This document shows positions 46,725 to 64,000 of a stretch of 64,000 nt of DNA, one piece after another; position 1 is the first letter of the stretch, and the number at the start of each line of letters is the position of its first letter. The stretch is from contig SVBB01000005.1 in assembly GCA_015059105.1 (NCBI GenBank), forward strand, positions 1-64,000, in the 5' to 3' direction. Below the pieces are notes generated by a model. The model ran no database searches and was not told the origin of the DNA. It saw only the letters and a program-made list of their open reading frames with translations. Source of the DNA: Erysipelotrichaceae bacterium. Lineage in GTDB: Bacteria > Bacillota_I > Bacilli_A > RFN20 > CAG-826. The position numbers were made by a program, and so were the translations under genes.

Positions 46725-49700
46725 TTACCAATTGATGTTGATTGTTGTTGCTTCACTTACAGTAATAGATTGATCATCGTTAGGATACCAGTTATCATTG
46801 TCACCCCAATTATGAGCATCATTATCAAGTCTTATCTTATATTTGTAAGTGTTGTTAACTGTCCATTCAACTGTTCCTTCCCATATTTTGGAATTGGCCG
46901 CTGTTTCAACTAATTTAATAGCGTTTGCGTTTGATGCTGACCATTCACAAAAATCGCCAACAATATAAACGGAACCACCCCAATCAGTAACATCGCCTTT
47001 GTTTTTTAAATCAGCGTGGAAAGTAATTGTTACTTTTTCTCCTGGTTCAGGGTCGGGAGAAGGTCTAGCAGGGAAAGTAATTGCACCTTTGTTTTCAACA
47101 ACAGCATCGACACCAACAGCAAATATTCTGTTCTTTTGAACTGTGTTTTCCCAAACATAAGTGGTTGGATCACTCGACGCTATTCTCACAAACTTATAGT
47201 TATATTCTTCTTTTGGAAGAAGTTGGATGGTTAATTTATAACACCCTTCAGTGTTGTCATATACCATTTTATAACTATCACTTGCTTTCCAAGCTGTTTC
47301 ATCAACAAAAGTGAAATCACCAACAACGTACAATGATTCACCATCTAAGATATCATCACAAGTGGCTTTGAAAGTGACATTAGTATTAATTGCTTCGATA
47401 TAGATTGTAAGTTTTTCATTCTTTTCTCTTAAATAAAGCTTGTAGTTGCCTGCAATATTAACAACTATATTGTCGTCATCATCAGCGACAAAGTTTGCTT
47501 TAGCGCCGCCATCATCCACAGACTCAAAGCCAAGCCATAATGAATTACCATCGTTTACTTTAATCTTTGTACTCTTATCTAGACCAAGTTGAATAGACCA
47601 TTGATGTGCTACACCTTCTGGTAAACTCTCTTCATCTTTTTCTAAAACAGCAGTACTAGTTGAATAATTCCAAATATCGCCAACTCCTAAAACTTTATAG
47701 ATAGTTTCCTCTGTTGAATGCACACCAAAGTAAACAGTACCAGCAGCTTTTGCAAAGATATCGACTTCGCAATCTTTTAAGACAGTGTAAGTCTTTGTAC
47801 CACTATCATAAGAAATGTATTCTTCTGCGCCTGCTTCAGGAGTTAAACCTAATGCAGTTTTGCCGTCTGTATCAAAAATCTTGAATGTTTGATCTTTGCT
47901 AAGAGCAACATCATCTTTCTTGAATTGAACAGTTCCACCATTATAGTCGAAGGCTAAATCAGTTTGAGGTGCTTCACCAACTTGAAGTTTGTAGTTCGCA
48001 CCAACAAAGCCTAAATAGATAGTAACAGTCTTGTTAGCGTCATTTGCGACTTTAAAGTATAGAGTAACTTGGCCTGCGTATAATGGTTTGATGTTGCTTC
48101 CAGATGGGTTTTCAAAATAAACATGGCCTTCTTCTTGAGAAACACAGTTAAATGGGAATGTTTCCATATTTACACAGTTCATTGGTTTGAATAATTCGTT
48201 AGCAGAAACATCAAACACGGATTTATATTGAGCGAGATAATTAGCTTTTTCTCCTTCAGGTAATTCATCATAAGCATCTACAAACATGAATCCACTGCTT
48301 GGAAGCATTTCATCTTTACAAACGACTTTATATGCATCAATGAATGTAACACCTGTTAGCCAAACTTCCCAAACATTGCCTTCGTTCTTATGGAGAACAT
48401 ACGCATGAGCATCATTAACAGCTAAACTAGTTTTTAATGTATCGCTTGGTTTGACTGCATTATTAATGTTTAATACACCACCGGCTTTAGGGTTTGCAGC
48501 TTTATTTTCACCAGCAATTCTCACGACGATTGCTTGTTCTTTAGCAATATCGAGTTCATCACCGACATATTCAAATTTTTCATCATAACCTTGATCAACA
48601 TCATTTGACTTAGTTAATTGAACTTTCTTACTACCAATAGTAATTGAATACTTATATTCAACTGCTACTTGGCAAGTATCTCTTACAGTTTCTTCTTCAT
48701 CAATAACACCATCTTGGTCTAAATCGATGAACGCTGTTATTGTGACATTTCCTTCTTTTACAGGAGTAACTACACCATTAGCAACAGTTGCAACATCTTC
48801 ATCGCTGCTCTTCCAAGCGAGAAGTTCCGCTTGGGTAGTATTAGCAGGAGTAAATTCACAGTTAAGAGTTAATGTTTCGCCCATAAAGAGGGTTCCAGAA
48901 GCATATTCGTCTTCACCATTTCTAATCGCTAATCCAGTAGCAGGAATAACTTGCTCAATGACATTGACATTAAATGTGTTAGATAAACCTAAGTATTGGA
49001 CAGTAATAACTGTGTTGTTTTTAATCACTGTCACAGTATTTCCAGCGACGCCATCAACGAGGTATGTAACACCTTCTTTACCTGCGCTACCAAGGAATTC
49101 CTCCATTTTGCTGCCAAATTGATCTTTAACTATAACGGTTAAAGTGCTTAAATTACTGATTGAGCTATTAACAACGATATCACCACCACTATAAGAAACT
49201 TCTAATGTGGTAGCGACAGGGAGTTCTTGTACGTAGAAATATCCGTTATACCATCCTTCTCCACCATCTCCATTAGGTCTAAAGTAAATTTGGTATAAAC
49301 CATCTTTTGCAACTTGATATTCATTACCTGAACCAGAAGGATAATAAACTGTCGCATCCGCATTCATTACTTTAATACCATCGCCGTTTTTTAACATCAA
49401 TGATTCGCTTAATAAGAATTCACCAGTAACAGAAGGATTTTCACTTAATTCATATTCTTTAGTGCTCCATTTTCCGGAATCACCATTAATCTTGCCGACA
49501 ACATAATAATGAACAACAGGAATATCTTCCCAAGTTGCAACGATTGTTACGTCATCTGTTAAAACACCAATGCTAGCGCCAGGTTGTTTAACTTGTTCAT
49601 TGACTAACCAACCTGCAAATTGCTGCCCAGATGGTGCGTCATATGGGTTAGCTGGTAAGAAGTATTCAATGCCTTTATCTACTGGAATATTAGTTGTTTC

Positions 49701-52700
49701 GCCTTCTGCAGATGGTTTTTGTGTAATAGATACTTTTACGATAGAAGCAGAAATCTTGTTGTTTTGAGTATTAATAACAAAGTTATAATATCTACCAAAT
49801 GCTAGGATAATGTTGTGGTTATCGTCTTTATCATCAACAAACACTTTTGTTCCACCAATATCTAGTGATTTTGCTTCATCGCTCAAAGCTTCGTAAGATA
49901 AACATCCGTCCCAGACACCATTGATGCAAACCTTAAATTTGGCGTCTTTCGCTAATTGAACATTCAATAACGAAACTTGGTTTTCACCAGTAGAAACAAA
50001 CGAATAAGTAGTATCAGTCTCAACCCAGCCATTCATAGAACCAACAAGGGCATAGTTATTCACAACTGGAACAGGAGTATAGCCACTCACTCTTACTTTG
50101 AAAGCAACTGGGTCGACTGTGACAGTTAAATCTCCACCTTCAATGATTGCCATTCCATCAGTGAGGTTGTTATTTTCCATATCTGTGTCTTTGCTATAAG
50201 CATCATAGGAGAATGATAAGACATCACCAGCTTTAAGACCGTTAACTTCAAATACATATTTGCCGTCTACCTTTTCAGTGGCTATTTTACTTTGGTTCCA
50301 AGCACCATTAACATAGATAGCTAAACCTTTAGTTCTATCAAGAGCAATCTTGTAACCATTTGTATAAATCTTGAAGTAAATATTATATACACCAGCATCT
50401 AAATAGATATTGCTATCGCTTTCATCTGGAGTGTTGCCTTCTAGATAATTATCGCCATAATAAACGCCTTTAATACTTAAGACCTTCATATTTAATGGTT
50501 CAGTAACTGTCAATTGATATTTAACTTGGCCAATGGCGTTAGCTTCTTCGATATCAACGTGAGTACCAACTAAAGCAGTATCCCAAGCCCATTTGTTTGG
50601 ATCGCTATCGACTGCGCTGCCACAGGCAAGTTTATATAATTCATAATCATGAATCACATTAACGAGTTCAATGAATACACCCTCGGCATTCGCGTGGAAG
50701 ATATATTGACCATCTTGGAGAACGATGAAGTCGTTATATGTGCCAGTACCAGAGAAATACCCTTGCACTGTTTCGCTTGTTTTCACCAAATCAAGATCGT
50801 TGTAATGCAAATAATGATCACTAGTTCCATCAATGATTTTGACATATAAGACATCGTTTCTATATAAAGTTAATGTTTCAGATTTAAAGTACCCGACATT
50901 AACTGTATCCTCGCTAAGAGCGTTAGCAACATCGTTGACATAAATGTTATTAGGCTTTACCCAAATACAGCTATTAGTTGTGCGATAGGCATAATCATAT
51001 GTCTTTCTCACTACAACAGCACTGGTCCAGTCAGAACCATCAAATTTTTCACCTTCTTTAACTTCAACGAGCAAGAAGCCATCAACATTGAAGATATCCG
51101 CGCCAACATTGAATGTCACGTTTGTGCCATCAATAGTCGCTGGGTAAGCCTTATTAAAAGTTTTATCTTTATTCCATGCCCAAACCGCTACAGAATTACC
51201 CTCTGCGATCGCTTCGTCAATGCTTACAGTCTTGCTTGTAGTCACATAATCAGTGATTGCAACTTTAAGATCAGCATCAACTTTAAAGTCATAGAACTTA
51301 TAACCGACTGCTTTAAATTCAGCGACAGCAGGATTTTCGCCGTAATATAAATTCAACTCATCACCATTTCTATCGTAGAAGGAAATCTTATCTCCATCAG
51401 CGAGATAGATTCTATATTCTGCCTTGTATTCAGATGATTGTTCTTTAATATCTGTTAATTCGATAGGAGAACCATTAACTTTAGCTTTAACTCTGTATAA
51501 GTCTTCTTCGCTGACGATAGAGAATCCACCAGGAAGCGCATATATCGTATACTTGCCTGCTGTAACAACAACAAGGTTACCATCGCCATCATGAGTGAAG
51601 GAAGCATATGTTTCAGGAGTACAGAATGATTCTAGTAAGTTTGCGTAATGTAAGTAGTAGTTTTCACAAGCGAGGAAGAACTTATCGCCTACATTAAGAG
51701 TAATTTGATCGCTAACATAATTATTCTTTTCTTGAACATAAGTTAATGGATAAACAACTGGATTATCCCAATCAGCAAGAGGAGCAACAGTCACTTGATT
51801 GACAATCGCTTTCCATTCTGTGGATGTATCACTCATCGTAATGTGATTTGATTCTCTTAAAACGATTGTGCTCCAGTCGTTACCAGAAGTTGATGGAGTA
51901 ATAGGATGTAAATCATCTCTCACTTCCACAAACATATATCCGGTAATTAAATCAGTATTCGTACCGAAATCAAATGTGTATTTAGAAGTCAATGGGTCAA
52001 AAGAATCCACTTCTACAACATATTTATTATCACTACTATCCCAGCCATAGGCATAAACGTTATGGGTAGGAGCAGTACCAGTGATAACAACAGACTTTTC
52101 AGTATTTCTTTCAACATAGAAGTAGCCTTCATACCATCCTTGGTGGCCGCCTTCTGGTCTGAAGTAAACCTTATATTCACCATCTACGGGGATATCGTAT
52201 TCGTTATCTTCACCATCAGGGTAATAAACATAACCATTAGAATTCATCACTTTAATGCCATCACCGGCTTTTAAAGAGATGTAATTTTCTAATAAATATT
52301 CACCTTCGACTTGGCCATTTTCAACTAATTCATAGTCGGTCGCATCCCATTTGTCTTCACCACCGATTATGCCAACAACATAATATTGATTAGCTGGAAT
52401 ATCTTCATATTTGGCAGTGATTGTCACATTGCCCTCAATATCTATTTCAGCATCAGGATATTGTAATTCAGCTTCGTTACCAACTTGCCATCCTTCAAAT
52501 TGCTTACCATCAGGAGCAGTAAATGTTGATTTTGGTAAGACAAATGTACCAGCTTGCATCACTACTGAATCCATTGAACCACTACCTTCTCCAGCGGAGA
52601 AAGTAATCGTATATTCTGGATCGATTTCAACGAGGTCAACTTTTAAAGAAGAACCTGTAATTGTGAAATTGAATGTACCATTCTTAAGAGCTTTTAATGC

Positions 52701-53672
52701 TTTAAAAGTATCAACCTCTTCGTATTCAAAATATTCTTTACCAGTAGAGGCGCTATCGAGATTGTCATAATCAAAGATTTCCGTTCTAAATCCATAATAA
52801 TAACAACCTTCGATGAGATTATCTTTAGTTACATGGACGTTATTCGCGACATAGCTATCGCCACTCTTACTCATTTCGATAGGCTGGTCTTCACTCAAGA
52901 TGGAGATCGTCGCATCAAAGAGCCAAGAGGAATTGCCTGTCTTAAAGTCAGTAGATTTGATTGTATTACTAATTCTATAAACATCTTCTTCTACTCTTTG
53001 AGGGTCAAAAGTTGTCACGCCTTCTTTTAATTCCACAAAGTTAAGAGCGGAATATTTACTTGCAGGATTTTCACCTAAATCAACTGTAAATTTAAGACCA
53101 TTAACAGCAACCGGAACAACATCAAAATCACTTTGGTCGAGATTTGCTTTAATGGCAACACCAACAACTTTGTGATTTGCTAAAGGCGCTTCATCCATCG
53201 TGATGACAAAGGATGTATCAACTTCTTCGTTAACAATGACAACACAAGTGTCATTCTTATCGTTACAAGACGCTGTAACAGTCGCGACACCAGGTTTTAA
53301 AGCGGTGATTAAACCAGTGTTAATGTTGACATCAACAATCGTATTATGGTCAACGTCATAATGTACTGTTTTGTCAGTAGCGTCCACCGGGAGCACTGTT
53401 GGAACGAGTTGGAAAGTATCTCCGACATCGAGTTCAAGATTGTGCTCGTTAAGGGTCACACTGCTAACAGGAACAACTGGAGAACCACTACTGGATGAGT
53501 TGGAACTCGAGCTTGATGGGTCTAGGCTGCTAGTTGATGATGGCCCAACATCAGAACTACTCGCCGGAATTTCTGAACTGCTGGATGAACTTGATGGAAC
53601 CATCACATCACAGGCAGAAAGCGCAAGTAAAAACACCGACAAAGCGGAAACTAAAAGAGTTTTCTTCTTCAT
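46725..53672 (-). CDS. Giant modular surface lipoprotein (2315 aa)
   Basis: Lipobox LSAC with Cys21, then about 50 residues almost entirely Ser/Pro. Modules in order: a Big2 Ig-like domain (about 75-150), an InlB-type repeat (about 355-425, GTFVLPKSTFTAPDGKQFEG), repeated beta-sandwich modules beginning YYVVGIIGG or HYYVVGKING and ending in VYFRPEGG...GWYEGYFYVE, a second InlB-type repeat, a second Big2 (about 1590-1680), further beta modules, and a C-terminal starch-binding-like domain (YIVGDFCEWSAS...YKYKIRLDNDAHNWGDNDNW). Probably binds polysaccharide at the surface. Long cysteine-poor mature chain; own promoter likely. Confidence 0.85.
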   Translation of the reverse strand: MKKKTLLVSALSVFLLALSACDVMVPSSSSSSSEIPASSSDVGPSSTSSLDPSSSSSNSSSSGSPVVPVSSVTLNEHNLELDVGDTFQLVPTVLPVDATDKTVHYDVDHNTIVDVNINTGLITALKPGVATVTASCNDKNDTCVVIVNEEVDTSFVITMDEAPLANHKVVGVAIKANLDQSDFDVVPVAVNGLKFTVDLGENPASKYSALNFVELKEGVTTFDPQRVEEDVYRISNTIKSTDFKTGNSSWLFDATISILSEDQPIEMSKSGDSYVANNVHVTKDNLIEGCYYYGFRTEIFDYDNLDSASTGKEYFEYEEVDTFKALKALKNGTFNFTITGSSLKVDLVEIDPEYTITFSAGEGSGSMDSVVMQAGTFVLPKSTFTAPDGKQFEGWQVGNEAELQYPDAEIDIEGNVTITAKYEDIPANQYYVVGIIGGEDKWDATDYELVENGQVEGEYLLENYISLKAGDGIKVMNSNGYVYYPDGEDNEYDIPVDGEYKVYFRPEGGHQGWYEGYFYVERNTEKSVVITGTAPTHNVYAYGWDSSDNKYVVEVDSFDPLTSKYTFDFGTNTDLITGYMFVEVRDDLHPITPSTSGNDWSTIVLRESNHITMSDTSTEWKAIVNQVTVAPLADWDNPVVYPLTYVQEKNNYVSDQITLNVGDKFFLACENYYLHYANLLESFCTPETYASFTHDGDGNLVVVTAGKYTIYALPGGFSIVSEEDLYRVKAKVNGSPIELTDIKEQSSEYKAEYRIYLADGDKISFYDRNGDELNLYYGENPAVAEFKAVGYKFYDFKVDADLKVAITDYVTTSKTVSIDEAIAEGNSVAVWAWNKDKTFNKAYPATIDGTNVTFNVGADIFNVDGFLLVEVKEGEKFDGSDWTSAVVVRKTYDYAYRTTNSCIWVKPNNIYVNDVANALSEDTVNVGYFKSETLTLYRNDVLYVKIIDGTSDHYLHYNDLDLVKTSETVQGYFSGTGTYNDFIVLQDGQYIFHANAEGVFIELVNVIHDYELYKLACGSAVDSDPNKWAWDTALVGTHVDIEEANAIGQVKYQLTVTEPLNMKVLSIKGVYYGDNYLEGNTPDESDSNIYLDAGVYNIYFKIYTNGYKIALDRTKGLAIYVNGAWNQSKIATEKVDGKYVFEVNGLKAGDVLSFSYDAYSKDTDMENNNLTDGMAIIEGGDLTVTVDPVAFKVRVSGYTPVPVVNNYALVGSMNGWVETDTTYSFVSTGENQVSLLNVQLAKDAKFKVCINGVWDGCLSYEALSDEAKSLDIGGTKVFVDDKDDNHNIILAFGRYYNFVINTQNNKISASIVKVSITQKPSAEGETTNIPVDKGIEYFLPANPYDAPSGQQFAGWLVNEQVKQPGASIGVLTDDVTIVATWEDIPVVHYYVVGKINGDSGKWSTKEYELSENPSVTGEFLLSESLMLKNGDGIKVMNADATVYYPSGSGNEYQVAKDGLYQIYFRPNGDGGEGWYNGYFYVQELPVATTLEVSYSGGDIVVNSSISNLSTLTVIVKDQFGSKMEEFLGSAGKEGVTYLVDGVAGNTVTVIKNNTVITVQYLGLSNTFNVNVIEQVIPATGLAIRNGEDEYASGTLFMGETLTLNCEFTPANTTQAELLAWKSSDEDVATVANGVVTPVKEGNVTITAFIDLDQDGVIDEEETVRDTCQVAVEYKYSITIGSKKVQLTKSNDVDQGYDEKFEYVGDELDIAKEQAIVVRIAGENKAANPKAGGVLNINNAVKPSDTLKTSLAVNDAHAYVLHKNEGNVWEVWLTGVTFIDAYKVVCKDEMLPSSGFMFVDAYDELPEGEKANYLAQYKSVFDVSANELFKPMNCVNMETFPFNCVSQEEGHVYFENPSGSNIKPLYAGQVTLYFKVANDANKTVTIYLGFVGANYKLQVGEAPQTDLAFDYNGGTVQFKKDDVALSKDQTFKIFDTDGKTALGLTPEAGAEEYISYDSGTKTYTVLKDCEVDIFAKAAGTVYFGVHSTEETIYKVLGVGDIWNYSTSTAVLEKDEESLPEGVAHQWSIQLGLDKSTKIKVNDGNSLWLGFESVDDGGAKANFVADDDDNIVVNIAGNYKLYLREKNEKLTIYIEAINTNVTFKATCDDILDGESLYVVGDFTFVDETAWKASDSYKMVYDNTEGCYKLTIQLLPKEEYNYKFVRIASSDPTTYVWENTVQKNRIFAVGVDAVVENKGAITFPARPSPDPEPGEKVTITFHADLKNKGDVTDWGGSVYIVGDFCEWSASNANAIKLVETAANSKIWEGTVEWTVNNTYKYKIRLDNDAHNWGDNDNWYPNDDQSITVSEATTININW

Positions 53673-53752: not shown

Positions 53753-55909
53753 TTAGAGAGTGATAACGACGTAACTATGGCCGTTTTTATACTCATAGGA
53801 GGTCGTTTTCGCTAAGTCTTTAACAATGGAAATACCAAAGCCACCTGCAACGATATCTTCACTATATTCTTCTAAATATTTCTCTGTGTTGTCTTTAAAT
53901 GGGTCGTAGTCATGACCGTTGACCACAATACTGATTGTCAATACATCTTTACTATAAGTAAATGTCACTTCAATGACTAAATCATCTCTTTCTTCATAAG
54001 AGATGTAATTGTTGATGAGTTCATCAAGAATCACCCCTGCTTTTGGTTTAATCTCATCATCTAAATAAGAGAATTTCTCATTGAATTTATCGACCATATC
54101 GACGATGATTTGAGGATTTTTTTCTTTATAGACGAGTTTTAAAGAAGCATTGTTAAATCTCGCGATCATCATCGTCACATCATCAAATGGTTCTTGCCCG
54201 CTGGTGAATTGACTTAAGGCATTATTCATATTAGAGATATATCCATCTAGAGATGAACCACTAGAGGCTTTTAACGTTTCTTCAATGCGAGAATAAGAGA
54301 ATTCTTCGCGTTTATCATCGATTGATTCATTTAATCCATCGGTGAACATAAAGATCGCATCTCCTTTATGGAAAGAATGTTTTTCTTCGATGAAACTGAC
54401 ATCTGGGACCGCGCCTAAAACATAGTTAGATTCACCATCGAGTTTGATGATTTCATCTTTAGAGATGATGTATGGTTTTTCATGACCAGCGTTGACGTAT
54501 TTGATTTCTTCTTTCTTAAAGTTGATAACACCGATAAAGGAAGTGACAAATAGACATTCATCGTTATTAGTGGTCAACACTTCATTCACTTCTTTCACCA
54601 CTTCTGCTAAAGAACTACCGCCTAATAACTTCGATTTGATGAGCTCTTTGCTCTTCATCATAAATAAGGAAGCTGGAATACCTTTACCAGAGACATCAGA
54701 CATGATGATGGCGAGTTCGTTGTCGTTCAAATAGAAATAATCATAGAAGTCACCACCGACTTCTTTGGCAGGTTTAATAAAGGAACGGACGGAAATATGT
54801 TTATCATCAAATGATGATTTTGGTAAAGCTTCAAGTTGAATCTTGCTCGCGATTTCAAGTTCGGCATTCATTCTTTCTTTTTCGCGCATGCTGTTTCTGA
54901 TGATGTCGACATAATTGACAATTTGATTTTCCATCGCTACAAAAGAACTACTGAGCATCATGATTTCATCGCGTGACTTAATATTTGGATCGACGACTTC
55001 AAATTTCTCATCATTTCCTAATCTATCTGTCGCGCTTATCGCAGCTTTATTCAAACGATTGATATTCTTCACAAATACCAAATATGAAAGAAGCGCGTAT
55101 AAAAGGATGATTGCTAAACTAGTGAATAGCATAATCAATAATTCATTGATTAAAACTGGACGGTACTGTTCATATACACGTGAAGTCTCATATTCGACAA
55201 ACATATAACCGATGACTTCAAACTCCTGAGTTTCATCGTTTTGGGCCTTGATTTCGATATAACGAGTATTGTATTTACCTAAAGTAAATCCTTTGATGAA
55301 ATCTTGACCGATATCATAGGTAGCATCGGTTTCTTTTAATTGATAATTACTAGCAGGGCAGTGATAATACACGCCTTTTGTTTTGCTCGTCCCAATTCGT
55401 GAATCGCAGATGAAGACGAAACGATTAGAATCGTTAGGATCTTTCACCGCGAAGAATGAGACTTGATCGCTATAAAAAGAAGCGTTCAATAGGATTTGGT
55501 TAATCGCATTGTAATTCTGTTTAAAAGTTGGATAATCACGCGTCATGAAAATGCCGTCTGCATAGAAATAAGGCAAATTGTTTTTAAAAACTGTTTCATA
55601 TTCAATGAATGTTGAATAATCCTTTTGCCTTGCATTATGGACTTCCGGCGCATTGTTATAGATATTCATCACATAATCTCTAACGTAAATGAAAGAATTG
55701 ACGTTGACATAAGTATCACTCGTCGCGTCGAGTTGATTATTCGCATATATCAAAGCTTCGTTCGCAGATTCATTTAAATCATCAGTCGCTTTTTTAATCG
55801 AATAATTGTAGTTGACGATAATCGCGGTTGTTGAAGTGATTAAAGCGGTGATAATACCTAAAAGTAAAACCTTTAAAAGAATCGGAAAATAAAAGCGCTT
55901 CTTTTTCAT
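53753..55909 (-). CDS. Membrane SpoIIE/PP2C-type phosphatase with sensor and C-terminal ATPase-like domain
   Basis: 718 residues. TM1 (about 10-30), extracellular sensor (35-245), TM2 (about 250-275), HAMP-like linker, then a SpoIIE phosphatase (about 360-590) with metal-binding EVGGDFYDYF, MSDVSGKGIPASLFM, NAGHEKPYI, FTDGLNES and FDDVTMM. It ends in an HATPase-like domain (about 600-718) with AGVILDELINNYISY and AGGFGISIVKDL. It should dephosphorylate the STAS protein next door in response to an outside signal. Combining phosphatase and kinase-like domains in one chain is notable. Confidence 0.88.
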   Translation of the reverse strand: MKKKRFYFPILLKVLLLGIITALITSTTAIIVNYNYSIKKATDDLNESANEALIYANNQLDATSDTYVNVNSFIYVRDYVMNIYNNAPEVHNARQKDYSTFIEYETVFKNNLPYFYADGIFMTRDYPTFKQNYNAINQILLNASFYSDQVSFFAVKDPNDSNRFVFICDSRIGTSKTKGVYYHCPASNYQLKETDATYDIGQDFIKGFTLGKYNTRYIEIKAQNDETQEFEVIGYMFVEYETSRVYEQYRPVLINELLIMLFTSLAIILLYALLSYLVFVKNINRLNKAAISATDRLGNDEKFEVVDPNIKSRDEIMMLSSSFVAMENQIVNYVDIIRNSMREKERMNAELEIASKIQLEALPKSSFDDKHISVRSFIKPAKEVGGDFYDYFYLNDNELAIIMSDVSGKGIPASLFMMKSKELIKSKLLGGSSLAEVVKEVNEVLTTNNDECLFVTSFIGVINFKKEEIKYVNAGHEKPYIISKDEIIKLDGESNYVLGAVPDVSFIEEKHSFHKGDAIFMFTDGLNESIDDKREEFSYSRIEETLKASSGSSLDGYISNMNNALSQFTSGQEPFDDVTMMIARFNNASLKLVYKEKNPQIIVDMVDKFNEKFSYLDDEIKPKAGVILDELINNYISYEERDDLVIEVTFTYSKDVLTISIVVNGHDYDPFKDNTEKYLEEYSEDIVAGGFGISIVKDLAKTTSYEYKNGHSYVVITL

Positions 55910-55915
55910 AAAAAA

Positions 55916-56212
55916 CTATTTAACAGTTAATATATTTTTAAATCCTGTAACTTTAAAAACTTCCTGACAGATTGGGGAGAGGTTATGAACTTCGAGTTCT
56001 TTACCTTGTGGGGCTAACGACTTTTTAACCGCGAGCAACGCGCGTAAACCAGCAGAAGAAATATATTCGAGATCACTCATGTCGATGATGACGAGTTTCT
56101 CATCGATTTTCTCTGCGTTCATTCTGTTTGTAAAGTCGACAGATGTCACCGTGTCGAGTCTTCCGGATAAATAGACGACTAACTGTTCTCCGTGTTTGAT
56201 GTTAATTTCCAT
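55916..56212 (-). CDS. STAS-domain anti-sigma-factor antagonist
   Basis: 98 residues, the typical SpoIIAA/RsbV length. VVYLSGRLDTVTS and VIIDMSDLEYISSAGLRALL contain the phosphorylatable serine loop. It is the switch protein between the RsbW-like domain (kinase) and the PP2C phosphatase. Starts 11 bases inside the MATE fusion gene, giving coupled translation. Confidence 0.92.
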   Translation of the reverse strand: MEINIKHGEQLVVYLSGRLDTVTSVDFTNRMNAEKIDEKLVIIDMSDLEYISSAGLRALLAVKKSLAPQGKELEVHNLSPICQEVFKVTGFKNILTVK

Positions 56213-57962
56213 TACTGATACCTCCGTTTAATTTTATTTCAAATATTGTGTTATTCAAATTAAGTATACGCATATATGTCATCTTATCAGTAAGATTTTT
56301 GATAAGTTTGATACCACTTGTGGAATATTCTTCCTCTTCATTTTCCTCATATTTAGTCGGATCAAAAGGCACTCCGTCATCTCTAATTCTTAATAATAAG
56401 TTATCTTCATAGAGCTTGAGATTGACATCGATATAACTGCTCTTTTCCTTTTTATAGCCATAGACGATGATGTTGTCCACCATCTCTTCTGCCGCTAAAC
56501 CGATGATTTGACTTTCTCTTTCTGGAATATTATGCTTCTTTGCAAATTCAACGATTTGTTCGGAGACTTTTGACGCATTAGCCTCATCATTCTTCAAAGA
56601 AACATCAAATGATTCGACATCGAGTTTTTCAAGCATGAATAAGCCACGGTATCCTTTTTTCCTATTATAGAAATATATAAATATATAGGTGATGATAACT
56701 GTCACAACTTCGTTAAGTGCAGAAGCAAGGCTATAACCCATTAATCCGTTCGTATGTAATAAGACAAGCGTCAACGGTAAAACGATAATCAATTCTCTTA
56801 ATAAGACGGTAACGATAGAAGCGACACTCTTATCCACTGTTGGATAATAGTTCATCGAGAATTTGTTGATCTCATACGGTAAGAAGGATATTAGATAGAC
56901 CCATAATAAGTTATTGACATAGCTAGGATTATCAGAATTATTAAAGCCGAATATCGCGCAGTATACATTCGGGAAAATGAGAATGAATAAGGATATCAGC
57001 ACTGTAATTACAATATTGACGACATATATCTTTCGAGCAATAGACCGTAACGAATAATAATCCTTTTCTCCATAGAATATCCCACATAACGTAGGAATGA
57101 TATTAAGTACACCACCGCATAATAAGTCGAAGAGGAACACCATATTGGAAATAAGACCAAAGATGACCAAATCAAAATCGGATAATAGTTTACCGATAAA
57201 GATATTGATGATGAGCATCTGCACTGCTGTTAATAATAAATTAATCGCAGAAGTCGCACTGGCCTTGCTCACATCCTTAATCATGCAACCCTTAAGTTTG
57301 AAAGTGAAAGATAATAATCTCTTTTTACTCACAAAATAGAAGATGGTGACGATAAGTCCGACGAAATATCCTGCCCCAGTAGAAAGAGCTGCACCCCACA
57401 TTCCCATTTTAAATACAGCGATAAATAATATTTCTAAACCAACTTTCGCCGCATTAGAAACGATATAAAACAAGGATGATAAACGTGGATTATTATCCAC
57501 AGCCATAAATGAACCAATCAGCAGGGCAAAAGTAATCACTGGATCGGTTAATAAAAACATATAAACATATGGATATGAATACTCAATAGAGGCTTCACCG
57601 AATAAAGAAGCTAATGGACGAGAAACAAAGAAGGAAAGCAAAGCAAATAGAAGTGATAAACCCATTCCGACAACCATCGTGAACGAAAATGTTCTTTTCG
57701 CCCCTTCCACATCTCTTTTTCCAAGTTGATTAGCGACGACAATCGATCCCCCAATTCCTAAAGCAAAACCTGGCATTTGAACAACATATAGAATCGGAAC
57801 GACAAGAGAAGAAGCACTGAGGGCTTCATTGCTGATCATATTGCCGATTAAAATGCCATCTACCAAGGAACCAAACTGCATTGCAAAAATCATCAAGATA
57901 GATGGGATGAGATAAGTGATAAACTTACGGTTAATAAGTTTTGAATTTCTTTCTAAACTCAT
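56202..57962 (-). CDS. MATE-family transporter fused to an RsbW-like ATPase/kinase domain
   Basis: 586 residues. Residues about 15-440 are a 12-helix MATE transporter (start KFITYLIPSILMIFAMQFGS, with GIGGSIVVANQLGKRDVEGA). Residues about 455-586 are a GHKL/HATPase domain with N-box LAAEEMVDNIIVYGY, G1 IRDDGVPFDP and G2 STSGIKLIKNL, as in anti-sigma kinases. Overlaps the synthetase gene by four bases (ATGA), so it is probably its exporter. The fused kinase domain would place a partner switch directly on the pump. Confidence 0.9.
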   Translation of the reverse strand: MSLERNSKLINRKFITYLIPSILMIFAMQFGSLVDGILIGNMISNEALSASSLVVPILYVVQMPGFALGIGGSIVVANQLGKRDVEGAKRTFSFTMVVGMGLSLLFALLSFFVSRPLASLFGEASIEYSYPYVYMFLLTDPVITFALLIGSFMAVDNNPRLSSLFYIVSNAAKVGLEILFIAVFKMGMWGAALSTGAGYFVGLIVTIFYFVSKKRLLSFTFKLKGCMIKDVSKASATSAINLLLTAVQMLIINIFIGKLLSDFDLVIFGLISNMVFLFDLLCGGVLNIIPTLCGIFYGEKDYYSLRSIARKIYVVNIVITVLISLFILIFPNVYCAIFGFNNSDNPSYVNNLLWVYLISFLPYEINKFSMNYYPTVDKSVASIVTVLLRELIIVLPLTLVLLHTNGLMGYSLASALNEVVTVIITYIFIYFYNRKKGYRGLFMLEKLDVESFDVSLKNDEANASKVSEQIVEFAKKHNIPERESQIIGLAAEEMVDNIIVYGYKKEKSSYIDVNLKLYEDNLLLRIRDDGVPFDPTKYEENEEEEYSTSGIKLIKNLTDKMTYMRILNLNNTIFEIKLNGGISNGN

Positions 57963-60900
57963 ATATCAGTCCTTTCAAAGAAACCGAGAGTTTCAAGTGC
58001 TTCAATCGCATTTCTTAAATATTGATAATCGGTGATTGGCCACTTATATCCGAGGTGATAAAGTGCCTTATTAGTAAATTCGTTATCAGAAAGGATAAAT
58101 GAGTGGGTATGCATATCGCTTGATGAATAGGAAATAAGAGAAGAAACTAACATGCTCTTCGTATCATCCATCATCATCTTTTTCATCGATTCAAGGAACT
58201 CTTCATCGCTGACAACTTTGATATCAAAACCAAGTTCATTTAGCACATAAATAATGTCGCCCATTTCCACCATATGGGAATTAGCAGAATGGAAAATAGT
58301 GAATTTTTGCGGTGTTTTTGCTAATAAAATGATAGTTTTTGCCACTTCATCAATTGGAGAGAAGTCAACAGTGATATCCATCGAATTGACTGGGAATTTA
58401 TGTAAAGTTGCGTATCCTTTTAGGTCGCGCATAAAGCCGTTAGTAATCGAATTAGCCTGGAACTCACCATCGCTATTTCGACCCATCAAGTTACCGACAC
58501 GGATAACCTTTGCGTCCACCCCATTTTCTGCAGCTTCAAGGATTGCTTTTTCTGCATTGAATTTAGAATGCACATATTTATTGGAGACATCTTGACCGAA
58601 GTCGAGCATATCTTCTTTCATCTTGAAGGATGGGGCAAATTTGTTATCGATATTTTCACCAGCGACAGAAAGCGTTGAGATTTGAATGATGCGACATTTC
58701 TTCTCTTTTGCCACTTCAATCAAATTGACCACTCCACCGACATTCACTCTTTCGATGATATCGTCGTTAGCAAAGTGTTTAACAATCGCCGCCGCATTGA
58801 TGATGGTGTCGAAATCATATTGTTCAAGTTTTTCAATTAATGTCTTGTCGGTGACGTCCCCGTCCACTACTTCGACAAGTCGATCTACTTCTTTATTAAG
58901 CGGAGAGTCAAAGTAATAAGCAAGTAGCGCTGATAGTCTTTCTCTTGAAGATAACTCACTATTACCTCTAACTAAAGCAACGACATTGATATTTTGATTC
59001 ATTAATTCTCTTAAAATATGTATGCCTAAGAATCCAGTCGCCCCTGTTAATAAGACTTTTTTAATCTCGTGTTCAGCGATGACATCATTAATTTCAGCAA
59101 CTGTATTATGGATAAGAGCTTTATTATCAGAAACAGTCTCGCGTTTTTCTTCTTTCTTATTAGTTGCTTCACCAGTTATTTCTGCAATATGTTTTTCAAG
59201 TTCTAAAACGGTTGGATAATCGAAGACATCGCCGTACGCGATTGGTAATGATGCATTAAGCGCGAACATCGCAACTTTCGAAACGCTTAAGCTCGTCCCG
59301 CCCATTTCAAAGAAGTCATCATCAACACCGACGTTATCCGTTCCTAAGACTTTCTTGAAGATGCCTAATAATTTTTCCTCTAAATCATTAGAAGCAGCTT
59401 TTACATCCTTCTTCTTTTCTTCCATCACTGGTTCAGGAAGTGCTTTTTTATCGATTTTGCCGTTAGGAGTAAGTGGAATCTTTTCTAACTGCATCATCAC
59501 TTTTGGAATCATATATGGGGTTAATGATTTAGCCATATGAGCGGTTAAATCATCTTTATCCACTTCTTTTGACGCCGCGAAATAGGCGACTAAATAGTCC
59601 CCATCAGTAGGATTGGTCTTCACTAAGATGACGGAATTAGAAACACCTGGATAAGAATTGAGCACTTTTTCAATTTCATCGAGTTCGACTCTTAATCCTC
59701 TAAGTTTAACTTGGTTATCAAGTCGACCAAAGAATTCGACATTGCCGTCATTATTGATACGGGCTAGGTCACCTGTACGGTACGCTCTTTCGCCGTTAAC
59801 TTCGATAAAAGCAGTTTTTGTTTTTTCAGGCATACCGTAATAACCTAAACCAACAGAATCCCCAGCAATTGTTAAATCACCAATCGCATTCGTTGGTAAG
59901 ATATGACCAGTCTTATCTAAGATATAGACTTTCGTGTTCGCGACTGGTTTACCAATTGTCATATATTCATCTCTAACAAGAGAATAAGTACAAGTGATCG
60001 TCGTTTCAGTTGGACCATATCCATTATTGATAGTCGCGTTAACACCTAATCCTCTAAGTTTATTACATAATTCAATTGGAACATTCTCCGCGCCCATATC
60101 GAGTTGTTTAAATCCTCTCAAGGCATCGATGAATTCTTCCATATCAACAAAGTTAGAAACAAAGGATGGAGTCATAAACATCACATTGACTTTATTCTTC
60201 TTTAAAGTCTTGGCAAGCAAGAGAGGATTTTCGATTTCTTCTTCGCTAGCGATAACCGCAGTATAGCCATGAGTTAAGACGACAAATTCTTCTTGTAAGG
60301 AAGCATCAAATGAGAATGAAGCAAAAGAACATGCGACGCAGTCATTTCCAATTTCTCGATATTCTCTAGTTGCTAAGTTAGAACCATCACAAACATAGTT
60401 CATGAGGTTATGATGGGCAATCATCACACCTTTTGGTTTACCAGTTGAACCAGATGTATAAATCATATACGCCAAAGAAGTAGAAGGAATCTTCACATTT
60501 GGATTATCATCCTTTTTAGAAGTTAAAACATCTTCAATGGCAAATGGAATAATGCCAGTTTTTTTGATTAAATCTTGGCGATTTGCAATGATTTCACGTG
60601 TAGAAAGCATAAATTTGCTCTTGCTATCAGTGATGATATATTCGACACGGTCATCAGGATATTTTGGATCAATTGGAACGAAAGCACCACCGGATTTAAC
60701 GATGCCTTGTCTTACAACATAGGCTTCTTTAATACGCGGCATGAACATCACAACTGGTTGGCTAAGTTCCACTTTATTATCGAGTAAAGTATGAGCAACT
60801 TTGTTTGCTGCTTTATTAAATTCATCATAAGTGAACTGACCGTTACAACCGATGACTGCCACTTTATCTTTGTTTTTAATCGCTTGTCGTTCTAATAAGA

Positions 60901-63900
60901 CATTAACAGTGACGTCTTCCACATCGACATGTGTATTATTAACATCTTTTAATATCTCTTCATCTTCTTTTGGTAAAAGGTTTAGTTCCGAAATATTCTT
61001 TTTATTAATTAATTGCCCAAGAACGAGTTCAAATAAACGGTTAAAGGAAGCGATGCTATAGTTATTATAAATCGCTTGATCCCATTCATAATGTGCGCGG
61101 TAAACTCCATTTTCTAAGAAGATATCTAAGCCAAAATCACTCTTAGGAGTGTCGCTTTCTAGCAAGATAGAAGATACTTTATATCCTCCAATATTATCAA
61201 AGAGGAAGTCATCACCTTGATAAGCAAAGATGATGTCCGCGGAAATATCATAATCGTTAACGACATCACCGAAAGAATATAAGTCGTTTTCTTCAAGTCC
61301 TTCTAAAAGAACTTTCATTTCATTAATTTTAGAAAGGATATCACTATTATCTTCATATTTGAGATAAACAGGTAATGTCTTCACTAACATGGAGACAGTG
61401 TTCATCATCTTTGATGATTTTCTTCCGTTATAAATGGTTGTATATAATGCTTCATTCTTATATAAGAATTTAGATAGAGTGAAGGCAAAAGCGAAATTGA
61501 ATAAAGCATTGCTTGTCACCTTGTTATCACTGACGAACTTCTTGATGAGCTCACTATTTAAGTTAAGCGAATAATCAATAGATGCTAATTTAGAAGTTTT
61601 CGCAACTTTTAAATCAGGCTTTAATGTGTATTTGCCGTCCACATCTTTTAAGACATTTTGATAAAAAGCTTTTGCCTTATCTAACTTATCACTGGCCAAA
61701 TCTGCTTTTTCTTTTAAGGCGATTTCAAAACCAGTATATGTTTCTAATGTTAATTCTTCCCCAAGATAAGCTTTATTTAAATCACTTAAGATAATTGCTT
61801 CCGAAGTACCGTCACAGATGATGTGATGGAAATCTAAATAGAGATAATTATCTTTTCCTTCATATATTTCAATGCGATAAAGTGGACTATCTAAAATTGT
61901 AAATGGCCTCACCAATTTAGATTTATCAATCTCACCTTTGATGATGCTGACTTCCGCTGGGACATCTTTTCTTCTCGCTAAGATATCGCCGTTATCATTC
62001 ATCAATAAAGTGGTCTTCAAATATGGGTGAGCGTCCACTACTTTGATAAGCGCTTGTTTAAGTTTATTTAAATCGATATTCTTATCTAATTTGAAAAGAT
62101 ATGGAATGTTATAATTCGTGGAATTAGCCTTAGAAACGCATTCGACAAAAATGCCTTCTTGAGTCTTGCTAAGCGGGTATTCTTCCAATAATTCAAAAGA
62201 CTCTTCCTCTTCACTCTTATTGAGCAAGAATTTCGCTAATCCTTCAATCGTTGGATTTTCTTTTAAATCAGAATTTTCCACGGATTTGCCGTACTTTTTC
62301 GACAAAAGTATCGTTAATCTGATTGAAGAAACAGATGTTAAACCGACATCAAATATGTTATTGGTAACACCGAATTGGTCATGCCCAATGACATCTTTAA
62401 CAATATCAAATATCGCTTGTTCATCTTCATTTCTCGGGGCGATAACTTCTTCTTGTTTAATCTCTGGCATTGGCAAAGCACGTTTATTAACTTTTTGGTT
62501 TTGGTTAAGTGGGATTTTATCTAACTGCATCGTATAAGCAGGGACCATATAAGGTGGCTTTTTGCTTCTGATGAATTCATTTAAATCTTCTACAGATACC
62601 TTTTCATCACTGACGACATAGGCAACGATAAATTTCACTCCACTTGGGTCAGTGAAATCTTTAACGGTGGCGTCTTTAATAGATGGATATTCACGTATTA
62701 CTTTTTCAACTTCTGAAAGTTCAATACGGAATCCTCTAATCTTCACTTGCCCATCTTTTCTACCGATGAAATCGATTGTCCCATCTGGTAAGAAACGAAC
62801 AATATCGCCTGTTTTATATAATCTTTTAAAATTTGGATCATCTGTAAACCAGTTATTTAAGAACGCTTCTTTATGTTCTTTTTCTCTATTTAAATAGCCT
62901 CTTGCCACTTGTGGACCAGAGATATAGAGTTCACCGTTTACTAAAGTTGGTAATCTCTTTTTATTTTTATCTAATACATATGCTTTATACGTTGGTAAAG
63001 TTGGTCCAATCGGGACGCGGTGATATAGTTGATTAACTAGTTGAATCGTACAGAACACTGTTCCTTCAGTTGGCCCGTATAAGTTATAGAATTTATATCC
63101 CTTAGGTGGGGCGATTGGAACAAGCTTTTCTCCTCCTAAAGCAAAGTGAGTGAGAGAAGCGCATTCTACTTCACTCGCAAACTGTCTACCAACTTGAGTG
63201 GTAATAAAGGAATGAGTAATCTTATTGCTATTGAAATATTCTCCGAGTTCCATGAGATTTAATCTCATCTCATCGGGAATGACATAGACACATGCACCAA
63301 TAGTAAGAGTTGGATATAAATCCATCATATCGGCGTCAAAACCATATGAAGCATAAGCGGAAACTCTACTATCACTAGTTAAGTCCATTTGACGTTGATA
63401 GTATTTACAAAATGTATAGATATTTCCGTGCTCTAACATAACTCCTTTTGGTAGTCCAGTTGAGCCAGAAGTATATAACATGATGAATAAATCTTGAGGT
63501 GAAGGTCTAGTTTTGATAGGAGAATTATCTTTAAAAGATAATAATTCACTAACCAATATTTCTTCACCTTTAAATTCAGTGATGATGCCACTTAAATTAT
63601 CATCTCTAATGAGAATGATTGCACTGGAATCATTGACCATGAAATTGAGTCTTTCTTGAGGATAAGAAGGATCAAGTGGTTGATAGGCTGCTCCCGATTT
63701 AACAACCGCTAAAGAAGCTAAAACGATATATTCCGATTTGTTAATCAAAATAGAAACAACTTTTTCTCTACCGGCACCTCTTTTGATGAGCTCATTAGCG
63801 ATTCTCGTCGTGATTTCATCAACTTCTTTATAAGTGTATTTATGGTCTTTAAATACCACTGCGAGATTATTTGGATATTTCTTCACACAGTTATCAAATT

Positions 63901-64000
63901 CATCTAATATGGTATGGCCGTCTCCTATATATGGGGCATCGATAACATTGAATGATTCGAGAAGCTTCTCTTCTTTTTCATCTACTAAATTGACATCTGC
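57959..64000 (-). CDS. Nonribosomal peptide synthetase, A-T-C-A-T-reductase, N-terminus beyond window
   Basis: The frame stays open to the right edge, so the gene is incomplete; 2013 residues are visible. From the edge: adenylation 1 (core LYTSGSTGLPKGVM), carrier 1 with Ser in DVGLTSVSS, condensation domain with HHIICDG, adenylation 2 (YTSGSTGKPKGVM), carrier 2 (EMGGTSL), and terminal thioester reductase (VLLTGATGFLGIHIL and YVHSKFNAEK). The reductase releases an aldehyde or alcohol, so a dipeptide aldehyde/pyrazinone-type product is likely if nothing precedes adenylation 1. Substrates cannot be assigned. Confidence 0.93.
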   Translation of the reverse strand, partial: ADVNLVDEKEEKLLESFNVIDAPYIGDGHTILDEFDNCVKKYPNNLAVVFKDHKYTYKEVDEITTRIANELIKRGAGREKVVSILINKSEYIVLASLAVVKSGAAYQPLDPSYPQERLNFMVNDSSAIILIRDDNLSGIITEFKGEEILVSELLSFKDNSPIKTRPSPQDLFIMLYTSGSTGLPKGVMLEHGNIYTFCKYYQRQMDLTSDSRVSAYASYGFDADMMDLYPTLTIGACVYVIPDEMRLNLMELGEYFNSNKITHSFITTQVGRQFASEVECASLTHFALGGEKLVPIAPPKGYKFYNLYGPTEGTVFCTIQLVNQLYHRVPIGPTLPTYKAYVLDKNKKRLPTLVNGELYISGPQVARGYLNREKEHKEAFLNNWFTDDPNFKRLYKTGDIVRFLPDGTIDFIGRKDGQVKIRGFRIELSEVEKVIREYPSIKDATVKDFTDPSGVKFIVAYVVSDEKVSVEDLNEFIRSKKPPYMVPAYTMQLDKIPLNQNQKVNKRALPMPEIKQEEVIAPRNEDEQAIFDIVKDVIGHDQFGVTNNIFDVGLTSVSSIRLTILLSKKYGKSVENSDLKENPTIEGLAKFLLNKSEEEESFELLEEYPLSKTQEGIFVECVSKANSTNYNIPYLFKLDKNIDLNKLKQALIKVVDAHPYLKTTLLMNDNGDILARRKDVPAEVSIIKGEIDKSKLVRPFTILDSPLYRIEIYEGKDNYLYLDFHHIICDGTSEAIILSDLNKAYLGEELTLETYTGFEIALKEKADLASDKLDKAKAFYQNVLKDVDGKYTLKPDLKVAKTSKLASIDYSLNLNSELIKKFVSDNKVTSNALFNFAFAFTLSKFLYKNEALYTTIYNGRKSSKMMNTVSMLVKTLPVYLKYEDNSDILSKINEMKVLLEGLEENDLYSFGDVVNDYDISADIIFAYQGDDFLFDNIGGYKVSSILLESDTPKSDFGLDIFLENGVYRAHYEWDQAIYNNYSIASFNRLFELVLGQLINKKNISELNLLPKEDEEILKDVNNTHVDVEDVTVNVLLERQAIKNKDKVAVIGCNGQFTYDEFNKAANKVAHTLLDNKVELSQPVVMFMPRIKEAYVVRQGIVKSGGAFVPIDPKYPDDRVEYIITDSKSKFMLSTREIIANRQDLIKKTGIIPFAIEDVLTSKKDDNPNVKIPSTSLAYMIYTSGSTGKPKGVMIAHHNLMNYVCDGSNLATREYREIGNDCVACSFASFSFDASLQEEFVVLTHGYTAVIASEEEIENPLLLAKTLKKNKVNVMFMTPSFVSNFVDMEEFIDALRGFKQLDMGAENVPIELCNKLRGLGVNATINNGYGPTETTITCTYSLVRDEYMTIGKPVANTKVYILDKTGHILPTNAIGDLTIAGDSVGLGYYGMPEKTKTAFIEVNGERAYRTGDLARINNDGNVEFFGRLDNQVKLRGLRVELDEIEKVLNSYPGVSNSVILVKTNPTDGDYLVAYFAASKEVDKDDLTAHMAKSLTPYMIPKVMMQLEKIPLTPNGKIDKKALPEPVMEEKKKDVKAASNDLEEKLLGIFKKVLGTDNVGVDDDFFEMGGTSLSVSKVAMFALNASLPIAYGDVFDYPTVLELEKHIAEITGEATNKKEEKRETVSDNKALIHNTVAEINDVIAEHEIKKVLLTGATGFLGIHILRELMNQNINVVALVRGNSELSSRERLSALLAYYFDSPLNKEVDRLVEVVDGDVTDKTLIEKLEQYDFDTIINAAAIVKHFANDDIIERVNVGGVVNLIEVAKEKKCRIIQISTLSVAGENIDNKFAPSFKMKEDMLDFGQDVSNKYVHSKFNAEKAILEAAENGVDAKVIRVGNLMGRNSDGEFQANSITNGFMRDLKGYATLHKFPVNSMDITVDFSPIDEVAKTIILLAKTPQKFTIFHSANSHMVEMGDIIYVLNELGFDIKVVSDEEFLESMKKMMMDDTKSMLVSSLISYSSSDMHTHSFILSDNEFTNKALYHLGYKWPITDYQYLRNAIEALETLGFFERTDI

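Follow-up and report, generated by a model that had tools for sequence, protein, structure and literature searches.

The stretch of DNA considered here, referred to below as the window, covers positions 1-64000 of a 97-kb contig (contig C18) from an Erysipelotrichaceae bacterium whose genome has a size of 1.5 Mb and is 92% complete. At its right-hand end there is a row of genes in which a nonribosomal peptide synthetase (NRPS) is followed by a MATE pump that carries a GHKL kinase domain, a STAS protein, and a PP2C phosphatase. The features of this row, with the matches that identify them, are as follows:

53753-55909, minus strand: PP2C phosphatase gene (Pfam SpoIIE 1e-39, HATPase_c_2 5e-6)
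53765..54070, minus strand: second, degenerate GHKL domain, on the phosphatase (PF13581 match, alignment)
54155..54724, minus strand: PP2C catalytic domain (PF07228 match)
55916-56212, minus strand: STAS gene (Pfam STAS 5e-15; TIGR00377 above cut-off)
56202-57962, minus strand: MATE + HATPase_c_2 pump gene (Pfam MatE 1e-25, HATPase_c_2 9e-15)
56268..56591, minus strand: intact GHKL kinase domain of the pump (PF13581 match; catalytic residues kept)
57959..64000, minus strand: NRPS gene within the window, its 5' part lying beyond; the full gene occupies 57959-65203 of contig C18 and encodes 2414 aa (Pfam/NCBIfam)

The NRPS and pump genes overlap by 4 nt (ATGA), the pump and STAS genes overlap by 11 nt, and 6 nt separate the STAS gene from that of the phosphatase. 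Upstream of the NRPS, on the same strand, are located genes for an Sfp-type phosphopantetheinyl transferase (PPTase), a UshA-like nucleotidase lipoprotein, and a membrane protein, which were named by eye from the sequence. Because neighbors across the whole row overlap by 1-11 nt or stand 6 nt apart, the NRPS-pump-STAS-PP2C row together with the upstream genes is, as judged by its layout, a single operon. An earlier reading of the same DNA (the first-pass annotation) had described the four genes as overlapping or nearly so and had assigned an RsbW-like domain to the MATE pump, and domain matches and coordinates bear out both statements. Its list of four genes and their domains holds but lacks the GHKL domain at the C-terminus of the phosphatase. 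The operon that it recognized is also longer than proposed, since the NRPS gene runs past the end of the window and further genes lie upstream.

The pump consists of a MATE exporter (residues ~8-440) and a C-terminal RsbW/SpoIIAB-like GHKL kinase domain (residues ~450-578). Both fold and sequence family place it among the MATE transporters; its AlphaFold model matches solved MATE structures with Z up to 33, and D35 in the first transmembrane segment (TM1) is invariant among the 19 members of alignment A1. The closest solved relatives of the GHKL domain are SpoIIAB and RsbW, with E493 and N497 of the pump corresponding to E46 and N50 of SpoIIAB. These two residues are invariant in the same alignment, as are D528, G530, and G550, and both the N-box Glu/Asn pair and the DxG motif of a partner-switching kinase are intact. 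In a scan of one genome per species, the catalytic residues of this domain were kept in 66 of 79 loci, in pumps down to ~30% identical; the scan was built on patterns from the pump itself, which makes its proportions less neutral than those of the family sample described below. The domain is conserved to the same degree as the membrane domain. An inactive GHKL domain, which the first-pass annotation had named as fatal to its interpretation, is ruled out by the alignment of the catalytic residues, which are kept in main-clade relatives. An assembly artefact was likewise rejected as the origin of the fusion: it is a single frame in 29 family genomes and in loci of many independent assemblies, and in the thirtieth pump-carrying family genome, the pump is split between contigs. 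A plasmid search with the fusion gave no record covering 80% of the query, and the rows listed match the membrane part only. Searches of open-access literature yielded no description of a MATE-GHKL pump and nothing relevant on a MATE protein with RsbW or STAS in an NRPS context. The MATE fold is shared with ClbM, the MATE transporter of the colibactin pathway (4z3n, Z 24.4). ClbM is encoded together with a peptide synthetase and is not known to carry a GHKL domain.

The STAS protein is SpoIIAA/RsbV-like and carries no extra domain. The residue predicted to accept the phosphate is Ser53, within the motif YISSAGLR; it corresponds to Ser58 of SpoIIAA, and, as expected for the STAS member of a partner switch, the acceptor Ser is present in all of the aligned neighboring-STAS relatives (26/26). 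According to hydropathy and the structural model, the phosphatase comprises a transmembrane segment, an extracytoplasmic domain of ~210 aa, a second transmembrane segment, a linker helix, a PP2C/SpoIIE domain, and a degenerate GHKL domain. The PP2C metal-binding residues are conserved, as expected of a partner-switching phosphatase, and the best solved match of the model is the RsbU-RsbW protein Rv1364c of Mycobacterium tuberculosis (3ke6, Z 27.5). In Rv1364c, a single chain likewise combines a PP2C with an RsbW-like GHKL domain; here, however, the phosphatase GHKL is degenerate, and the intact one is located on the pump. Within the window's clade, the ADP-binding Asp in the DxG motif of the phosphatase GHKL is replaced (VVNG, SNG, TNG; the window has VVNGHDYDP), and it is intact in more distant relatives. 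Because the phosphatase GHKL is degenerate, the pump is, on sequence grounds, the carrier of the sole intact kinase domain of the locus. For the sensor domain, Pfam gave only weak, meaningless matches up to E 5, and the matches of a structure search were filled by the PP2C domain. A separate type of STAS protein was seen in relatives of the NRPS locus (L056 15938-17092, with similar genes in L109, L110, and L130), where STAS is fused to an APH-type phosphotransferase; these genes stand near another STAS gene and a PP2C-GHKL gene.

The full frame of the NRPS has the domain order C-A-T-C-A-T-R (condensation, adenylation, thiolation, and reductase), with a thioester reductase at the C-terminus. 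All motifs looked for are present (HHxxxDG twice, SGSTGxPKG twice, the carrier Ser twice, TGATGFLG, and YxxSK), and the protein thus has the C, A, and T domains, the terminal NAD(P)-binding reductase, and the catalytic motifs of a reductase-terminated NRPS. The best NCBIfam match is AusA (NF047350), with 1041.5 bits on the 1975 aa inside the window. An AusA equivalog was rejected because this score is far under the curated cut-off of 2500 and because there is an extra N-terminal C domain compared with A-T-C-A-T-R. The product freed by the reductase domain is most likely an N-acyl dipeptide aldehyde. Dipeptide aldehydes are the reported products of NRPS clusters of the gut (ruminopeptin), reviewed in PMC12327764. 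The NRPS studied here is small, as are those of these clusters and AusA, but it differs from them in the extra C domain and the low AusA score. No report of a partner-switching module with gut dipeptide-aldehyde or AusA clusters was found in the open-access papers searched.

The inheritance of the set was followed in 196 genomes of the family, a sample that was not selected for the pump gene. The NRPS reductase region is present in 37 of these genomes and the pump with its GHKL domain in 30, in all 30 beside the NRPS. The pump was thus found in 30/37 genomes with the NRPS vs. 0/159 without it (Fisher p = 5e-29), and the cognate phosphatase, present in 29 family genomes, in 28/37 vs. 1/159 (p = 5e-25); both tests count genomes and not independent gains, so that the p-values overstate the evidence. 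In five pump carriers of the clade with no PP2C at the NRPS locus (G069, G153, G099, G161, and G194), a cognate PP2C lies elsewhere in the genome, and a STAS gene stands beside it in both genomes that were opened (G069 and G099). As a rule, the STAS gene comes immediately after that of the pump, including at loci that lack a local PP2C (L110, L111, L128, and L130). Of the 66 species-scan loci that retain an intact GHKL, 63 lie no more than 3 kb from an NRPS. The contig of L157 is cut inside the pump gene, that of L135 ends after the STAS gene with no NRPS upstream, and L162 is the one real exception. Promoter scans gave no excess over shuffles.

Carriers of the set belong to Bacilli, Clostridia, Negativicutes, Acholeplasmatales, and Synergistota, and the four-gene set, which the first-pass annotation had proposed to look for in other gut genomes, does recur there. 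In distant phyla, the gene order is shuffled, and the set is still together; Synergistaceae have the order STAS-PP2C-pump-NRPS, and one Selenomonadaceae locus has pump-PPTase-NRPS-PP2C-STAS. Because clostridial sequences are placed among those of Bacilli in the pump tree, transfer between classes is suggested, with binning errors of metagenome-assembled genomes (MAGs) possible for single rows. In samples of ~400 genomes drawn from the entire class and phylum, few matches were obtained (the pump in 4 genomes, the NRPS region in 6). In 25 complete sets, the membrane domain of the pump, its GHKL domain, the STAS protein, the PP2C phosphatase, and the NRPS domains show parallel divergence, with rank correlations of 0.76-0.95. 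Such correlated divergence supports joint inheritance, not contact, and shared ancestry would produce it too.

A sigma-independent partner switch most likely serves a peptide-aldehyde pathway at this locus. In the proposed mechanism, the NRPS would make a small peptide that is released by its reductase domain, and the MATE pump would export it. The cytosolic GHKL domain of the pump would phosphorylate the STAS protein on Ser53, and the membrane PP2C would sense a cue through its extracytoplasmic domain and then strip the phosphate from STAS. The dephosphorylated STAS protein could rebind the pump GHKL, and export would be changed. Product release may in this way be timed by an external cue in combination with the nucleotide state of the pump itself. 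The chances are about even that the module is a partner switch that works without a sigma factor, serves a single natural-product pathway, and alters export through binding of STAS to the pump. Slightly more tentative is the proposal that partner switching gates a membrane pump directly, by means of a MATE protein with a built-in Ser kinase and an outside-sensing PP2C, with no transcription factor.

The first-pass annotation had suggested that STAS phosphorylation controls export or that the export state signals to gene expression. Control of export by STAS phosphorylation is plausible, and neither of the objections foreseen for it (an inactive GHKL domain or, as discussed below, a sigma factor elsewhere) held. 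The interpretation stands only in part, because four relatives keep the NRPS, STAS, and PP2C without the pump, and export is not the sole possible output. These relatives belong to several observations that weigh against the proposed mechanism. Full or contig-cut NRPS genes lie next to STAS and PP2C genes, with no pump of the MATE-GHKL family, in G081 and G006 (both 96% complete), G125 (87%), and G190 (58%); loci of this kind are L178 6107-15781, L179, L180, and L184. An intact GHKL domain had been expected on the phosphatases there, and this expectation failed. HATPase_c_2 domains were found in these genomes on phosphatases only, the aligned ones are degenerate, and no other such GHKL protein was found. 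To judge from these sequences, the switch cannot work as proposed in the four relatives, and the kinase is missing or unrecognised. In addition, ten Selenomonadaceae loci contain the NRPS and the pump with neither STAS nor PP2C adjacent, as viewed within the locus. The role of the pump as the likely exporter of the NRPS product is deduced from operon context. In a further genome, G167, the NRPS is present and a PP2C lies on a different contig, with no pump.

The four pump-less genomes, in which STAS and PP2C stay with the NRPS, speak for a different output, as does the distribution of the cognate PP2C (28 of 29 genomes with the NRPS). The pump could serve as kinase and sensor, and STAS could target either the NRPS or a distinct regulator, which would let the export state feed back on synthesis. 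Known sigma-independent switches also target enzymes or DNA. In SiaABCD of Pseudomonas aeruginosa, the target of the partner switch is a diguanylate cyclase and not a sigma factor (PMC7647112, PMC8457831). Like the system studied here, SiaABCD has a membrane PP2C, a kinase, and a small anti-sigma-antagonist-like protein, and the SiaA PP2C is among the best structural matches (Z 26.6); unlike here, its kinase SiaB is a separate protein, and there is no transporter and no NRPS. CapK-CapS (PMC13373217) combines an anti-sigma-like kinase with a STAS-like substrate and no sigma factor, CapS being a DNA-binding repressor; unlike in the present system, neither a PP2C nor a transporter is mentioned with the pair in the abstract. 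Against such an output, the STAS protein here has no additional domain, and among the genes flanking the set, no regulator recurring from locus to locus was observed. STAS action on synthesis or on a regulator is considered unlikely.

It is also conceivable that the GHKL domain is a docking platform only, and that STAS binding holds the pump, synthetase, and phosphatase together with no catalysis. Degenerate GHKL domains do occur on related pumps (L169-L177) and on phosphatases. However, docking alone would not need the catalytic residues, and these are kept in the 66 loci of the species scan, so that a purely structural role is improbable. Natural variants bear on the role of the pump domain. 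Desulforhopalus vacuolatus has an NRPS, a MATE protein with a C-terminal domain lacking the catalytic residues, and, further on, a PP2C, a STAS protein, and a stand-alone intact GHKL. In Robinsoniella peoriensis and a rumen Eubacterium, the pump domain is degenerate, a separate GHKL gene lies beside the PP2C, and no NRPS is in view. In variants of the Desulforhopalus type, the kinase and the receiver appear to be split, which would fit the pump domain as the STAS target. In the Desulforhopalus locus, the stretch between pump and PP2C (L176 11765-14590) holds genes whose products resemble, by eye, a PaaK-type ligase and an NMT1-like substrate-binding protein; the second of these may contribute to sensing by the phosphatase. 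The R. peoriensis locus (L175 9938-18066) contains a MATE protein with a degenerate GHKL, a GNAT protein, a dCache-PP2C, a stand-alone GHKL, and a small sigma-like protein. It also holds short proteins resembling Nif11-type leader peptides and is perhaps a counterpart of the NRPS sets for ribosomally synthesized and post-translationally modified peptides (RiPPs). In L071, L072, and L076, from the same bacterial family, a MATE protein with a degenerate GHKL-like C-terminus stands in other contexts without an NRPS.

Partner switches are best known as sigma-factor controls, and few are known to act on other targets. The SpoIIAB and RsbW systems of Bacillus control sigma F or sigma B. With SpoIIAB-SpoIIAA-SpoIIE and RsbW-RsbV-RsbU, the present set shares a GHKL Ser kinase, a phospho-Ser STAS protein, and a PP2C, and the catalytic residues align; in contrast to them, its kinase forms part of a MATE pump, and an alternative sigma factor can be absent from carriers. 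In the classic form of control, the pump GHKL would act as the anti-sigma factor of a sigma factor whose gene lies elsewhere. Its nearest solved relatives are indeed anti-sigma factors, and the window's genome encodes three short sigma-70-like proteins with region 2 besides RpoD; however, these are found in 187-208-aa frames, the size of extracytoplasmic function (ECF) sigma factors. Fifteen carriers were screened for sigma region 2, and region 4 was searched too. In G046, G109, and G133, which are 94-97% complete and have the whole intact set, RpoD is the single protein with region 2, and the region 4 search brought up nothing more than short or partial matches in proteins lacking region 2. 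The cognate alternative sigma factor that an anti-sigma factor needs is therefore missing from these three near-complete carriers, and the sigma factor elsewhere that the first-pass annotation had raised as an objection did not appear. Classic sigma output is excluded in the three, within the limits of draft genomes, and is unlikely in general; as an explanation of the locus, it is very improbable. The lack of such a sigma factor in some carriers suggests that the switch controls export or synthesis of the peptide and not transcription. Chance adjacency of an NRPS operon and an unrelated signaling operon, for which nothing speaks except that other STAS and PP2C genes exist in the same genome, is refuted by the family counts given above and by the recurrence of the same set in several phyla in varied order, and its probability is negligible.

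Other genes of the host were also noted. The gene immediately following the operon, also on the minus strand (window 46725-53672), encodes a lipoprotein of 2315 aa whose N-terminus is rich in serine. A second partner-switching module on contig C26 (L005 7740-12728) consists of a STAS protein and a PP2C with an intact GHKL and continues, by eye, with a synthetase of RelA/SpoT type and a protein that combines HD-like and APH-like regions. A third PP2C phosphatase on this contig (L006 8304-9755) has several membrane segments and no GHKL domain. The nearest named relatives of the host are uncultured Erysipelotrichaceae/Bacillales MAGs, many of them from the rumen.

In the present system, the kinase is built into an exporter, and in several phyla the set accompanies one and the same type of NRPS. 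The phosphatase sensor diverges fastest, with a mean identity of 19%, compared with 35% for the phosphatase GHKL, 48% for the PP2C catalytic domain, and 53% for the pump GHKL; the difference between the sensor and the catalytic domain is as expected if each species detects a different cue. The sensor is a possible handle for switching on silent clusters, and the system may be useful for studying how the release of a reactive peptide is timed in bacteria of the gut and rumen.

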